DNA from: Spiroplasma taiwanense CT-1
GTDB lineage: Bacteria; Bacillota_I; Bacilli_A; Mycoplasmatales; Mycoplasmataceae
Assembly (NCBI RefSeq): GCF_000439435.1
Contig: NC_021846.1
Coordinates: 806,001-870,000, forward strand
Length of the DNA: 64,000 bases
Direction of reading: 5' to 3'
Under the pieces are notes generated by a model, which worked only from the letters and a program-made list of their open reading frames with translations, had not been told where the DNA came from and searched no databases. Of the stretch, positions 7,352-42,985 are shown one piece after another (the first letter of the stretch is position 1; every line of letters begins with the position of its first letter). The position numbers and the translations under genes were made by a program.

Positions 7352-7545
7352 AAAACACTCCTAAATATAGGAGCGTTTAACCGCGGTACCATCCTATTTA
7401 TATAATCAAAAAATGATTATATATCTTTTAATAGATTTATACGCAATCCTAACGAGGAGTTCTAATCAGTGTAAAACCTTTCTTCTCCTAATAAAATGAG
7501 TGATAAGCTTAAAAACTCCTTGTTAATTCACACCAAACATTAACT
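7352..7545 (-). promoter_or_regulatory. T-box leader of ileS
   Basis: On the minus strand the conserved T-box AGGATGGTACCGCGG lies at 7381-7395. It is followed by a terminator hairpin (7353-7378, arms around ATATTTA) and a T-run, 25 bases before ileS. Upstream, AAGGAGTTTTTAAG (7508-7521) and AGAACTCCT (7455-7463) can pair as the base of stem I. The triplet beside the 3' arm is ATT (7464-7466), an isoleucine codon in the specifier position. Uncharged tRNA-Ile is expected to stabilise the antiterminator and allow ileS-lspA-rluD transcription. The 5' limit is approximate. Confidence 0.87.
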
Positions 7546-7561
7546 CTCTGAAAAGTGTTTT

Positions 7562-9060
7562 TTAAACTTGTGTCTCATTATTTTCTTCTTTTATTAATTC
7601 ATCAACCAAAGTTGAGAAATAATCACTGTAATTAAATTTTAAAGTTTCAGAATTAATTGGAAACTCATTTGAAATAACTTGATCAATATTTATTGCAAAG
7701 TTGTTTAAGCCAACAAAATTTTTTAATTTACTTTGATCAACATCTTCTTTTAACTGATCTAGTGCTTTTTTATATTTGTTGGTTCGTTAGTTTCACTATT
7801 TATATCTTCTACTGTTCCTGCAATTGCACCATATTTATCTGCTAAACCAATTCTTACAGGTTTATTTACAAGTGAATAATAACCTGATCCATTATTTCAA
7901 GACAAATCAATTAAACTTCTAATTATTAAATAAAAATATTCAGGTTCTTGAGCACCTAGAGCAGAATATATTATTTCACCCTTTTTTAAATTAACATTTT
8001 TACTTGTAATTGTTTCCTTTGCAATAATGCTATATTTAGTTCTAAATATATTTGTAATTAATACATTTATATCTTCATACCATCCTTGTAATGATTCAAT
8101 AAAAGGAATATAACTTGCAGAATTTCTTTCATAATCTTTTAAAAATAAATATTGTAATTTTGGAGATAATGTTAGATAAAAATTTTTATTTTCTAATCAC
8201 TTTTCAATCATTACTTCTCTAATAGCTTGAGAAATAGTTTCTTGGCTTTCTCTATTATATAAAGTTTGACCAGAAATTGCTAAATCAATTCCATCTAAAT
8301 TTAAAGTATCTATTTTTTCTTTTAAAGAAATTTTTAAATCATTTTTTTGGTCTCATGAAAAAAGCATTCTATCTCCTGTTGCGCCACCAAAAAAAGCTAT
8401 GTATTTTTTTTGATCAATATTTTTATTTCTAGTATTTAAATAATCAATATTTTCCTTAGTTAATCACAAATCAAGATTTGTATCATAATTTTTAGTTGAT
8501 AATAAATAAGCTAAATTAATAATTGAGTAGCTTGAATCTTTTAAATTTACTAGTAATGTATCTTCTGCAGATAAAGTTTTTGATTCAATTTTAGTTTCTC
8601 ATTGATACCAATAACCTGATATATTATGCTCAGTATATTCAATTGGTGATTTTGCCTTTATAATATCTGAAACTTTTGCTTTAAAAGTAATTGTTTGATT
8701 TCTTTTAACTATTTTTGAATTTAAATTTGATGAAATTTTTGCAGTATATTGCATTATTTCATCTTCTCTTGGTTGAATTGTAGAATTTAGTAAAGTTATT
8801 GAAGAAAAATCAAAATAAATATTTACAAGTTTTTCAATATCACTTTCATTTTCTATACTAATTTTATTAATTTCTGCAAGTTTTTTAATAATGTATTTTT
8901 GATTAATTATTTCATCATCATTAACTTCAAAATTTCCTAAATCTCATTTTCAATTTAAAGATGAGAGATCTAATATTGTGTTATCAGAACAAGCAATTAC
9001 AGATGTTGTTGAAGTTGCTACTAAACTTGTTACTGCCAATAAACTAAGTAGTTTTTTCAT
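7562..9060 (-). pseudogene. Lipoprotein gene with a one-base frameshift
   Basis: The N-terminus is a lipoprotein signal peptide (MKKLLSLLAVTSLVAT, lipobox VIAC), so the product would be anchored on the outer face of the membrane. The rest is hydrophilic with no recognised domain. Translation in the first frame gives 433 aa and stops at a TAG at 7759-7761. The -1 frame resumes coding-like sequence (YKKALDQLKEDVD) for about 65 more codons to a TAA at 7562-7564. Loss of one A from the A-run near 7776-7782 explains this. The near-complete first frame could still give a working protein lacking its tail, and a sequencing error is also possible. Confidence 0.7.
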
Positions 9061-23293: not shown

Positions 23294-23776
23294 ATGAAAG
23301 AACAAAAAAATACAAGTAATTTAAAAAAATTAAAAGATTTACGTGAGCAAGAAAAGTTAGCTCACAAACAAGAGATATCAGATAAAGTTAAAAAACTTAA
23401 TTCAGATCCTCTTGAAACTAGAACAAAGTTTATTCATTCTAAAAAACTTCGCTGATATGATTATTTAATCATATTTGGTTTTAGTACATTTATTATAGGT
23501 TTAGCTTTTATTTTAGGTATTTTTGCTTTCCAAAACATTGAAAAAACTGAATGAATTATAACTGCAATTGCAGTATTTGGTTTACTAGTTTGATTAATTC
23601 TTGGATGATACAAAAATAAACAAGTTGCTAAATTTTATAATGATGTACGAAGAAGATATCAATCTTCTCTTTCTGAAGAAGAAGGACATTTAAGAAGAAT
23701 TTCTAAAATTATTCTTCTTATTTGTTTAATATTGGTTATAACTTCAATAATTCTTGGACTTATACTTTGAGTATAA
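23294..23776 (+). CDS. Small two-helix membrane protein of unknown function
   Basis: 160 aa, readable only with TGA as Trp (Trp codons at four or more sites). Residues 1-45 are charged and cytoplasmic (KLKDLREQEKLAHKQE). Helices are at about 57-78 (IIFGFSTFIIGLAFILGIF) and 87-105, then a charged loop (VRRRYQSSLSEEEGHL), and a third hydrophobic stretch ends the protein (ILLICLILVITSIILGLIL). I do not recognise a family. It is one of two plus-strand genes, diverges from opp locus 1, has a clear GAGGAG site before ATG, and is followed by a long hairpin. A link with peptide uptake is only positional. Confidence 0.8.
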
Positions 23777-23799
23777 GTTTTTTTATATTCTTAAAAAAA

Positions 23800-23862
23800 G
23801 AGTATTTTAATTTAGAAGTGTAGTAAATTTTATTACCTAATTACTTATAAATTAAAATACTC
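23800..23862. repeat. Long inverted repeat after the plus-strand gene
   Basis: The 15-base arms 23800-23814 and 23848-23862 are exact complements around a 33-base loop. An A-run precedes it. It could terminate the small membrane protein transcript, but the loop is long and no clean T-run follows on the plus strand, so a structured RNA or cruciform is also possible. Confidence 0.6.
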
Positions 23863-24164
23863 TTAGTATTATTAGAAACCTATTAAAAATTAAATATTTT
23901 ATATCAATATCATTTAGAATAGTTTTTTAAATTTTATAAACAACTGGGTCATTTTACCATATCTTTTTCATTTCATTTATACGCTCTACGACTCATTACA
24001 TTGCCTTTAAAAAACTTATTTTTAAATGACAATGGAGAAAACACAAAAAAGACACAAAATTTATTAACTTTTTTTAATATAGAATGCACCATTTATTCTG
24101 GTCTCCTTCATCGTCTAAAACAATAGTACCAAATATAGAAAAATTTTCAATCATTAGATATAAA
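23863..24164. other. Intergenic stretch with a less AT-rich island, no gene called
   Basis: No complete reading frame is convincing here. Positions 23940-24010 and 24095-24125 are visibly richer in G and C than other spacers. Read on the minus strand with TGA as Trp, 23930-24040 gives about 35 codons (…MSRRAYKWNEKDMV…) without a plausible start. This may be a decayed gene or an RNA element. Confidence 0.35.
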
Positions 24165-31276: not shown

Positions 31277-32494
31277 CTATTTTGTTAATTTTATTCTTGG
31301 ATCTAATAATGCCATTAATAGGTCACTCAATAATGAAGTAAAAACTCCACTAGCTGAAGAAATAACAATATAACCTAAAACAACATATATATCATTTGTA
31401 CTTACACCACTTAAAATATATTTGCTCATTCCAGGAACATTTCAAAATCTTTCAACAAGAATACTTGAACCAAATAAACATAATATAAAGGCTTCAGGTA
31501 AAGTTTTTATAACTCTAATTCCTGCATTTCTAAATATATGAACATAAAATACATATTTAGAACTTAAACCTTTTGAAATTGCAAATCTTGTATATTCTGA
31601 AGTCATCTCATCAATAACAAATCTTCTTGTATCTACAACAATTATAGAAATCATTAAGAAAACAACCCCAATAATGGCAAAGAAATCTGAATAAGAATTT
31701 TCACCTCAAATTCCCATAGAACCAAATACTTTAATTGATATTATTCAAATCATGGTAATTAAAACTGTTGCGGGAATTGAGCTAATTCCTAAGAAAAAAC
31801 CTTTTATTCCATTATCAATTGTTTTTTCTTTATACTTTGCAGAAAGTATACCTAATGGTATTCCAATTACATAAGATAATAAAAGAGCGACTCCACCTAA
31901 TAAAAATGAAATTGGAATAGCTCCTTTAAATTCATCTAGAACATTTGAATTTACAAAACCATTATTCTTATTCATTATTACTCCAAGAAAAAATCAAGTT
32001 TTTTCATATGTTCCTTCAATTACTAAATTATTTATTCTAATTGGTAAAAAAACTTCCTTAGGTATAAATGGTGTTATATTTCTTCAATATATTAAGACTT
32101 GTTTTATAAGTGACCCACTTAAACCATAACCAATTTTTCTATTTTCAATCAAAGCATAATATTCAACACTTCCAGGTTTAATTGAAGTTGGTTTTCCAAA
32201 ATCATAATCTGAAACTAGTGCTGAATCTGGCATAAACAATACAAGCAATATATAAACTATTGCAATTGATAAATACAAAGTAATAAAAGCATACAATATT
32301 CTTTTTAAAGAATAGCTGAATAAAGGTGCTTTTTCAAAAAATTCTTTTCTGGTAGAATTCAATTTTAAAACTGAAAACTTAAATTTTTCAAAAAATGATC
32401 CTTTAGTTTTTTTTACTTCTTCGTTTAAATCAACAGATTCAAGTAACTTCTCTAACTCCAAATCACTGAGTTTGTCTTTTGATACATTTTCCAT
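31277..32494 (-). CDS. oppB: Oligopeptide ABC transporter permease OppB (locus 2)
   Basis: 405 aa. The cytoplasmic N-terminus (about 65 aa) precedes the helix YSLKRILYAFITLYLSIAI. The coupling loop is EYTRFAISKGLSSKYVF followed by HIFRNAGIR; the C-terminus is LLMALLDPRIKL. The periplasmic segment between helices 1 and 2 (about 95-170) is the most divergent part compared with loci 1 and 3. It is the first gene of locus 2. Its partner oppC is frameshifted, so the channel may need OppC from another locus. Confidence 0.94.
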
Positions 32495-32702: not shown

Positions 32703-32775
32703 CTAATAAAAAAATAGTATATCCTTTAGAATTTATTTAAAATTTATTTAAATATTTTCTGTAGATATACTATTC
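32703..32775 (-). terminator. Terminator-like hairpin of the decayed leader module
   Basis: The 11-base arms AATAGTATATC (32713-32723) and GATATACTATT (32764-32774) pair across an AT-rich 40-base loop, with a T-run following on the minus strand. The same arms occur at 42621-42631 and 42670-42680 before opp locus 3. Confidence 0.72.
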
Positions 32776-32805
32776 TTGTAATTATTTTACCTGGTTCACT
32801 TTATT

Positions 32806-32990
32806 TTAGTTTGAACTCGAATTTCAATCTACATAAAAAGATTTTTTTATAATATTTTTTAAAATTAGGCGTGTTAAAAAAATAATTGTGAACAATTTTT
32901 ATTTGTTAATTTTAGTAAATGAAAAAGATCACCAGCTGCTTGTGATTCATAAATTTTTCCTTCAAGTGCAAATAATCTTATACTAATCAT
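32806..32990 (-). pseudogene. Decayed copy of the small ORF preceding opp locus 3
   Basis: It begins MISIRLFALEGKIYES… after GAGG and resembles the intact copy at 42712-42930 (SILERKVYQSQ, then LFxLLKLT in both). After KLTN the frame stops at TAA following about 39 codons. Homology to the intact copy resumes at the DNA level, ending in GTAGATTGA and AAAATAAAGTGA shared by both, so deletions and a frameshift have shortened it. Promoter and terminator of the module are still recognisable. Confidence 0.72.
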
Positions 32991-33017
32991 TACTTATTAC
33001 CTCAATTAAATTTTTTT

Positions 33018-33046
33018 ATAATATAAAAATATTTTATGTTTGTCAA
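33018..33046 (-). promoter_or_regulatory. Promoter of the decayed leader module
   Basis: On the minus strand TTGACA (33041-33046) and TATTAT (33018-33023) are separated by 17 bases, upstream of the decayed small ORF. The spacing and the -35 match those of the intact module at 42957-42985. Confidence 0.75.
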
Positions 33047-33106: not shown

Positions 33107-33134
33107 CAAAAAAAAAGTGCAAATTTGCACTTTT
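33107..33134 (-). terminator. Intrinsic terminator after opp locus 3
   Basis: A 22-base perfect palindrome (33113-33134, AAAAGTGCAAA and complement) is followed on the minus strand by a T-run. It lies about 45 bases beyond the stop of oppF in locus 3. Confidence 0.8.
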
Positions 33135-41322: not shown

Positions 41323-42597
41323 TTATCCTTTCTTTTTCTCCATTAGTTTTACTCTTGGATCTAGTAATGCCATTAAAAGATCACTAATTAAACTTAATAA
41401 TAATGATATTGAAGCACTAACTAATACAATTCCCAAAATTAAGAAAAGATCAGTTTGACTAATTGCAGAAACTGTTGTATTTGCCATTCCAAGAACACTT
41501 CAACTTTGTTCAACAAGTAAACTTGCTCCAAATAAATTGGCAATTAATGCTGCAGGAATACTTCTAATAATAGCAATTCCTGCAATTCTAAATATATGAA
41601 CAAAGAAAACATATCTATTTGTCATTCCTTTTGATAAAGCAAACTTTGTATAATCTGCACTCATTTCATTAACAATGTATCTTCTTGTTTCAAAAATAAT
41701 TGCGGGTGTTCCTAATAAAACTAAAAGTAAAACTGGGAATATCTTTGTATATAATGTTGAATCAGTTCATAACGACCCTGCTCCAAGATAGTATATTGAA
41801 AATTGGAAAAATAACCTAACAATAACTAATGCAGGTAATGCAAACATAATTAAACAAAACCAAGTTATAAAATTATCTTTAACATTTTCCTTATTTATTG
41901 CAGCATAAATACCAATTGGAATACCTATAAAAAATGATATTACTGTAGCAATTGCACCAAGTTGAAAAGAAACAGGCATATTATTTGATAAAATTGTCTG
42001 CACAAATGTTCCTTTTGCAAATCCACCACTATCAGTAAAAGTAATACCTAAGTAGAAAAGCTTAGTGACCATTGTTCCTGTAATTGAACCATCAGATTCA
42101 TAATGAGCATCTGTTAAAATTTCTTTTGGTATAAATGGTGTTATATTTCTTAAATAAATAATAATTTGTGATAGTAATGATCCATCAACACCTAATAATT
42201 TTTTTCTATTTTCAATTAAATTGTAGTATTGTTCTGAACCATAAATAATATTATTTTTATTTAAATCAATATCTCCAATATAAATACTGTCACTTGCAAC
42301 AATATTTAATAATGCATATAAAACAGCAATAGCAATATATAAAGTTATAATTGCATAAAATATTCTTTTTAAAGAATATGTCAGTAGTGGATAACTACTT
42401 AAAAAATCATTTTTCTTATTATTTAAGACCCCTATTTTATAATTTAAAATATTTAAATTCACTTTCTTTTTCTTAAATAATTTGTTCTTTTTTATATCTA
42501 AAATTAATATTTTTATTCTTTCTTTCTCTTTCTCATTTTTATTTATATATTCATTCTCATTTTCTTTTAATTTTTTTATATTATTTTTCTCATTCAT
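41323..42597 (-). CDS. oppB: Oligopeptide ABC transporter permease OppB (locus 3)
   Basis: 424 aa. A very basic, charged N-terminus of about 65 residues (KKLKENENEYINKNEKEKE) precedes the helix YSLKRIFYAIITLYIAIAV. The coupling loop is DYTKFALSKGMTNRYVF with HIFRIAGIA; the C-terminus is LLMALLDPRVKLMEKKKG. It is the first gene of locus 3, starting 14 bases after the leader-module hairpin. The N-terminal extension differs in sequence from loci 1 and 2. Confidence 0.94.
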
Positions 42598-42711: not shown

Positions 42712-42930
42712 TTAATAGGAACCCGAATCTCAATCTACATCAAAAAAAACTTCCATGCTTTCATCATTCATGAAAATATTTTTTTTGGTAATATTATTGA
42801 AAATTGGACATTGTAAAAAAATAATTGCAAACAGTTCTTTTTTTGTTAATTTTAGTAAATTAAAAAGTTCACCACATAATTGTGATTGATAAACTTTTCT
42901 TTCAAGTATAGATATTTTTATACCACTCAT
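42712..42930 (-). CDS. Small protein of the leader module before opp locus 3
   Basis: 72 aa, starting MSGIKISILERKVYQSQ and ending DVDWDSGSY with TGA as Trp. No signal peptide, membrane helix or recognised domain is seen. It is preceded by GGAGGT and a strong promoter (TTGACA, 17 bases, TAATAT) and followed by a hairpin terminator, so it is a complete transcription unit just upstream of oppB. A decayed homologue with the same promoter and hairpin precedes locus 2. It might be a leader peptide or small regulator for the opp genes, or a toxin-like or mobile remnant. I do not recognise it from any family. Confidence 0.7.
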
Positions 42931-42956
42931 TACTCATTACCTCCATTAACTTTTTT

Positions 42957-42985
42957 ATATTAAAAAAATAATTTGCCTTTGTCAA
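42957..42985 (-). promoter_or_regulatory. Promoter of the intact leader module
   Basis: TTGACA (42980-42985) and TAATAT (42957-42962) on the minus strand with a 17-base spacer, about 30 bases before the small ORF. This is the best consensus promoter in the window outside the rRNA operon. Confidence 0.82.

Follow-up and report, generated by a model that had tools for sequence, protein, structure and literature searches.

Leaders that act through a premature terminator are reported to evolve fast, and in Firmicutes and Proteobacteria one and the same gene can have different sensing systems in different species (PMC2965389). Short ORFs annotated ahead of operons are in many cases mis-annotated leader peptides (PMC2965389), and T-boxes are known in Mollicutes (PMC2494555). 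In T-box leaders (RF00230), as in the leader M3 described here, the terminator stands about 20-25 nt before the start codon and would have to be read through. The T-box leader of ileS in the DNA that we analysed (Table 1) has its terminator at 7378-7352, ending 25 nt before the ileS start, a spacing similar to that of M3.

Mollicutes have few transcription factors and depend on imported peptides; to our knowledge, little is known about how their peptide importers are regulated. In the open-access literature we came across no description of a Spiroplasma opp leader or attenuator. The window (the whole stretch of DNA analysed, 64,000 nucleotides, at 806001-870000 in a 1.075-Mb mollicute contig read with genetic code 4) contains three oligopeptide permease (opp) operons. 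Module M3 lies before opp3, module M2 before opp2, and a further element, E1, upstream of opp1. By sequence, M2 and M3 have several features of an attenuator: a promoter, a Shine-Dalgarno (SD) site and a short ORF, then a predicted intrinsic terminator before the first gene. This is the order found in premature-terminator attenuators (trp/his-type and the Firmicutes leader-peptide systems), which the opp leaders also resemble in that sequence turns over rapidly and position is kept. They differ from these attenuators in that the ORF (69-72 aa) is long for a leader peptide and the operon to be controlled encodes a mollicute oligopeptide permease. No run of one codon occurs in the ORFs. Because the M3 ORF has no run of regulatory codons (no run exceeds two identical residues), M3 is not filed as a trp/his-type attenuator. 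They differ from T-boxes in having an ORF in place of a tRNA-binding structure; in Rfam searches at relaxed thresholds M3 had no match (E up to 5), and neither M2 (E up to 1) nor E1 had a plausible one; searched in the same way, the ileS T-box gives E=7e-16.

What we describe is a copied leader at Spiroplasma opp operons, probably of attenuator type, for which the sequence of the peptide seems irrelevant. In our reading, to which we give a probability of roughly 0.55, M3 would be a terminator leader that limits opp3, with its ORF acting in cis, and M2 a frameshifted copy of it at opp2.

The opp operons and their paired leaders

NCBIfam and Pfam models place opp3, then opp2, then opp1 on the minus strand, 3' of ftsA-ftsZ-sepF (Table 1). 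The operons do not all have the same gene order, which fits separate origins: opp1 shares the order of opp2, and opp3 has another. The promoter, GAGG site, small ORF and hairpin that a preliminary description of this DNA had listed for both loci are all present on the minus strand, in the same order, and in each module the hairpin is followed by a U tract. GAGG is SD-like, and the 16S rRNA 3' end within the window carries CACCTCCTTTCT. Within its region no site resembles a sigma-70 promoter better than that of M2, which has 11 of 12 consensus positions (-35 plus -10) and is nearer consensus than that of M3 (10 of 12).

Table 1. Coordinates of the opp operons, their leaders and the ileS leader, as positions in the window
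Feature	Position	Strand	Remarks
T-box leader of ileS	7352..7585	-	RF00230, E=7e-16, below Rfam gathering cut-off
opp cluster	14648-42597	-	opp3, opp2 and opp1
opp1 operon		-	order B, C, D, F, A
oppB1	start 23223	-	
E1 element	23798..24150	-	small ORF and hairpin, upstream of opp1
E1 TTGAAA	24150	-	
E1 TACTAT	24128	-	
E1 SD GAAGGAG	24109	-	
E1 ORF	24092-23934	-	52 aa
E1 hairpin	23864-23798	-	17-bp stem
opp2 operon	down to 24216	-	oppB2 first; order B, C, D, F, A
oppB2	31277..32494	-	405 aa; NF043081 OppB; opp2 clade
M2 module	33046-32703	-	before opp2
M2 -35 box TTGACA	33041..33046	-	sequence
M2 -10 box TATTAT	33018..33023	-	17-nt spacer
M2 SD-like GAGG	33000..33003	-	9 nt before ATG (32990)
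M2 small ORF	32874..32990	-	38 aa, truncated by 1-nt frameshift
M2 terminator-like hairpin	32777-32709	-	U tract to 32703; -21 kcal/mol; 215 nt before oppB2
Terminator 3' of oppF3	33113..33134	-	67 nt before M2 -35 box; separates opp3 from M2
opp3 operon	down to 33179	-	oppB3 first; order B, C, A, D, F
oppB3	41323..42597	-	424 aa; NF043081 OppB; opp3 clade
M3 module	42985-42611	-	before opp3
M3 -35 box TTGACA	42980..42985	-	sequence
M3 -10 box TAATAT	42957..42962	-	17-nt spacer
M3 SD-like GAGG	42940..42943	-	9 nt before ATG
M3 small ORF	42712..42930	-	72 aa with code 4 (a single TGA codes for Trp); no family
M3 terminator-like hairpin	42683-42617	-	U tract to 42611; -21 kcal/mol; 20 nt between its end and the oppB3 start

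Are the two modules homologous, or merely both AT-rich? The preliminary description had proposed a base-by-base alignment, and this puts the similarity far above chance: the local alignment score is 364, against a maximum of 55 in 500 dinucleotide shuffles. Overall M2 and M3 are about 80% alike, and the similarity runs end to end. It begins some 10 nt upstream of the -35 box and stops at the SD of oppB3; oppB itself is outside. When M3 was used to query the whole genome, M2 was found at E=5e-86 and the next best match at E=4e-4, setting aside two other-strand hairpin self-matches. The 11-mer that forms the hairpin arm occurs five times in the genome, four of these being the arms of M2 and M3; since about five occurrences are expected by chance from base composition (our own estimate), the weight of evidence is on the alignment and the fold, not on the 11-mer.

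Each hairpin has an outer stem of 15 bp, rich in A and U, then an inner stem and the U tract. The predicted folding energy is about -21 kcal/mol for both (z about -6.7), and none of 200 shuffles was as good. In the intergenic parts of the window no other terminator-like hairpin is as strong as these two and that of E1. Elsewhere on the minus strand, genes begin 27-30 nt after each of the hairpins 53257-53202, 14642-14588 and 48414-48354; some of these have a TATAAT-like sequence in or just after them and are compact terminator/promoter overlaps.

Leaders at opp loci of related species

The preliminary description had also pointed to the regions upstream of oppB in relatives. There the architecture is present; the module sequence is not. 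Among 20 genomes of the genus no relative of the module DNA rises above AT-rich noise, and the M3 peptide has no convincing relative in 60 genomes, Pfam, NCBIfam or PHROGs. A single ortholog of oppB3 was found, 68% identical, in a genome of another species (G003). Directly before it stand TTGACA-17-TACTAT, GAGG, an ORF of 69 aa and a hairpin (-21.8 kcal/mol, z -4.7) that lies a few bases before the oppB3 SD. Neither this ORF nor this hairpin is similar to that of M3, and the leader DNA matches at shuffle level. The three hairpins with U tract (G003, M2 and M3) have z from -4.7 to -6.8. Two loci of the opp2 clade (G014 and G012) have a promoter, SD, 32-aa ORF and terminator before oppB. Homology of M3 to the leaders of G003, G014, G012 or to E1 was rejected, the similarity being at chance level by shuffles and by profile. 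In two loci of the opp1 clade (L083 and L084, genomes G005 and G011) short SD-preceded ORFs beginning MPF lie just upstream of oppB, without a clear terminator; that of G011 comes directly after an ftsZ-like end. These are possibly another leader type.

In a tree of 31 OppB proteins the products of oppB1, oppB2 and oppB3 fall into three separate clades, and of the opp leader pairs tested all except M2/M3 are at chance similarity. Had M2 and M3 come down with their operons, they ought to be as dissimilar as the other leaders. They are therefore not an inherited pair: the operons are old, and the leader was copied from one opp locus to the other, recently on this scale. The direction opp3 to opp2 is more likely, since M3, unlike M2, sits flush against its oppB and since M2 is broken. 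The earlier suggestion that the decay is recent is compatible with the closeness of these two copies and the chance-level similarity of every other pair.

The preliminary description overlooked E1, and it is E1 that is the genus-conserved module, the sequence of M2/M3 not being conserved across the 20 genomes. Relatives of the E1 ORF occur in 14 of the 20, this genome included (relatives L127-L138), in every case on the strand of oppB1 and about 0.57-0.87 kb upstream of it. E1 thus shows that small-ORF and terminator elements accompany opp loci across the genus. In codons 16-33 even the silent positions are conserved, and this stretch is able to fold into a CATTGTC/GACAATG hairpin, which suggests that the core of this ORF functions at the RNA level. 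The E1 terminator stem has some paired changes, with an overall covariation term of about zero. E1 is like M2 and M3 in its promoter, strong SD, small ORF, long-stem terminator, location on the oppB strand and association with opp. It differs in its unrelated sequence (no similarity to M2 or M3 was detected), in an ORF core kept at silent positions and in having an opposite-strand gene between it and oppB1, because of which E1 cannot be a simple oppB1 leader. We found no published name for it. The intervening gene (23294-23776, plus strand) encodes a small putative membrane protein and is convergent to E1 and divergent from oppB1; it is apparently present in relatives too and seems decayed in G018.

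The small ORF and the alternative explanations

The M2 ORF follows that of M3 codon by codon for 31 codons; one base is then missing (about 32897), and later 33 bases, in frame, at 32842/32841. In the frame of M3, M2 stays open until a TAA (32806) that matches the M3 stop in position. These two lesions account for the shortened ORF that the preliminary description had reported alongside a preserved promoter and preserved hairpin arms. From this comparison of two copies we infer loss in M2 rather than gain in M3.

All the large gaps between M2 and M3 fall in the ORF. Substitutions per site are 0.195 in the ORF, 0.164 in the promoter-SD part and 0.089 from the stop codon to the oppB SD (p=0.02 for ORF versus 3' part), so that, judged by these rates, the module is best preserved at its hairpin end and least conserved in the ORF. 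The first 30 codons after the start differ at 17 positions, and all 17 differences change an amino acid; none of 19 silent sites has changed (Fisher p=0.02, with small numbers and an AT bias that slows silent sites). No purifying selection on the peptide is therefore visible, and the sequence of the M3 peptide looks dispensable. The earlier contrast between an intact and a decayed module obscures the fact that the M3 peptide, too, bears no mark of constraint. The companion claim, that the regulatory DNA may matter more than the peptide, is borne out in part, by the greater divergence of the ORF, by the unchanged silent sites and by the G003 layout with its unrelated peptide.

The same pattern could arise if each module were an independent small gene, its promoter, ORF and terminator encoding a small, fast-evolving protein, with an oppB promoter overlapping the hairpin and M2 as a pseudogene copy. 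The excess of nonsynonymous changes could then mean positive selection, and promoter, SD, ORF and terminator are indeed complete in each module. E1 offers a parallel, since the other-strand gene that separates it from oppB1 makes it no simple leader. Furthermore, the sequence TATACT inside the 3' arm of the M3 hairpin could serve oppB3 as a -10 box, and several genes begin 25-33 nt after a terminator-like hairpin (counted within the window); from these two observations, oppB3 might have its own promoter. Set against this, an unrelated ORF in the same order in G003 would be odd for a functional protein, the position flush before oppB3 is kept in both species, and the ORF is less conserved than the non-coding 3' part and has no protein relatives. 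We regard the independent gene as rather unlikely, though it is the most serious of the alternatives.

Alternatively, M2 could be a functionless scar of tandem duplication or recombination with opp3, similar to M3 only because the event was recent. Its place between opp3 and opp2 is the one that a tandem duplicate of M3 would take, its ORF is broken and the copies are about 80% alike; the stretch 3' of M2 also has a weak, AT-rich similarity to the 5' end of oppB3, a score that 9 of 300 shuffles reach. A mere scar, however, would not be expected to keep its hairpin and stop-to-SD region better than its ORF (p=0.02), nor a promoter nearer consensus than that of M3, and between the M2 hairpin and oppB2 there is no other promoter-like site scoring at least 9 of 12. 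This explanation we judge improbable. Finally, it is very improbable that the inverted repeat AATAGTATATC/GATATACTATT, perfect in both copies of a module that is present twice, is the DNA site of a regulator or marks the ends of a mobile element (a small MITE-like element was considered and rejected), because the arms enclose only the last 67-69 nt, inside the module and not at its ends, the inner stem and directional U tract fit RNA, the genome has two copies only with none in plasmid or phage records, and at the G003 ortholog the hairpin in this position has another sequence.

A possible mode of action

On our preferred reading, M3 would be the 5' leader of the opp3 operon, with its own promoter, a translatable small ORF and a predicted intrinsic terminator. 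As the terminator lies directly before the oppB3 ribosome-binding site, polymerase starting at the M3 promoter would have to pass it to express opp3. The small ORF would most likely act as a cis leader ORF, through its translation and not through the sequence of its peptide. M2 would be a second copy of the leader, carried to opp2, whose ORF was later frameshifted while promoter and terminator were kept. The hairpin would thus terminate transcription, translation of the ORF would regulate read-through, and M2 may still drive opp2. Since one ORF is broken, and since a related species has the same layout with unrelated sequence, the leader probably works as a switch of the operon and not by encoding a peptide that is useful in itself.

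How might translation be sensed? In both M2 and M3 the best upstream pairing with the 5' arm of the terminator is that of UGUAGAU, near the ORF end, with AUCUACA. This candidate antiterminator pairing stands at a level matched by about 10% of shuffles in M3 and in M2, a test that the T-box also fails. The counterpart in G003, AUGUACUUUU with AAAAGUCUACA, is weak and worse than the average shuffle. In minimum free energy folds without the 3' arm, M2 and M3 choose different partners, and RNA structure in the ORF part is not significant (z -1.0 in M3, +0.2 in M2 and -0.4 in G003). If the UGUAGAU/AUCUACA antiterminator is real, termination would be favoured where ribosomes reach the stop codon fast; we predict that the M2 frameshift, by stopping ribosomes early, would favour read-through.

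A broader proposal, which we offer tentatively, is that Spiroplasma opp operons are under a class of translation-sensing leaders. In these the position and the layout (promoter, small ORF, terminator, oppB) would persist although the sequences of ORF and hairpin are replaced almost completely, and such leaders could be moved from one operon to another; the M2 frameshift would then uncouple the leader from translation and fix opp2 in one state. The M2/M3 pair amounts to a natural experiment, having the same promoter and terminator with the reading frame intact or broken. RNA-seq of S. taiwanense has been published (runs SRR3466528-SRR3466531; PMC5726471), and these mosquito-spiroplasma data might already bear on the leader hypothesis. 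An opp leader whose layout is kept in position across species, and which was copied between operons, provides a concrete hypothesis for the regulation of opp.
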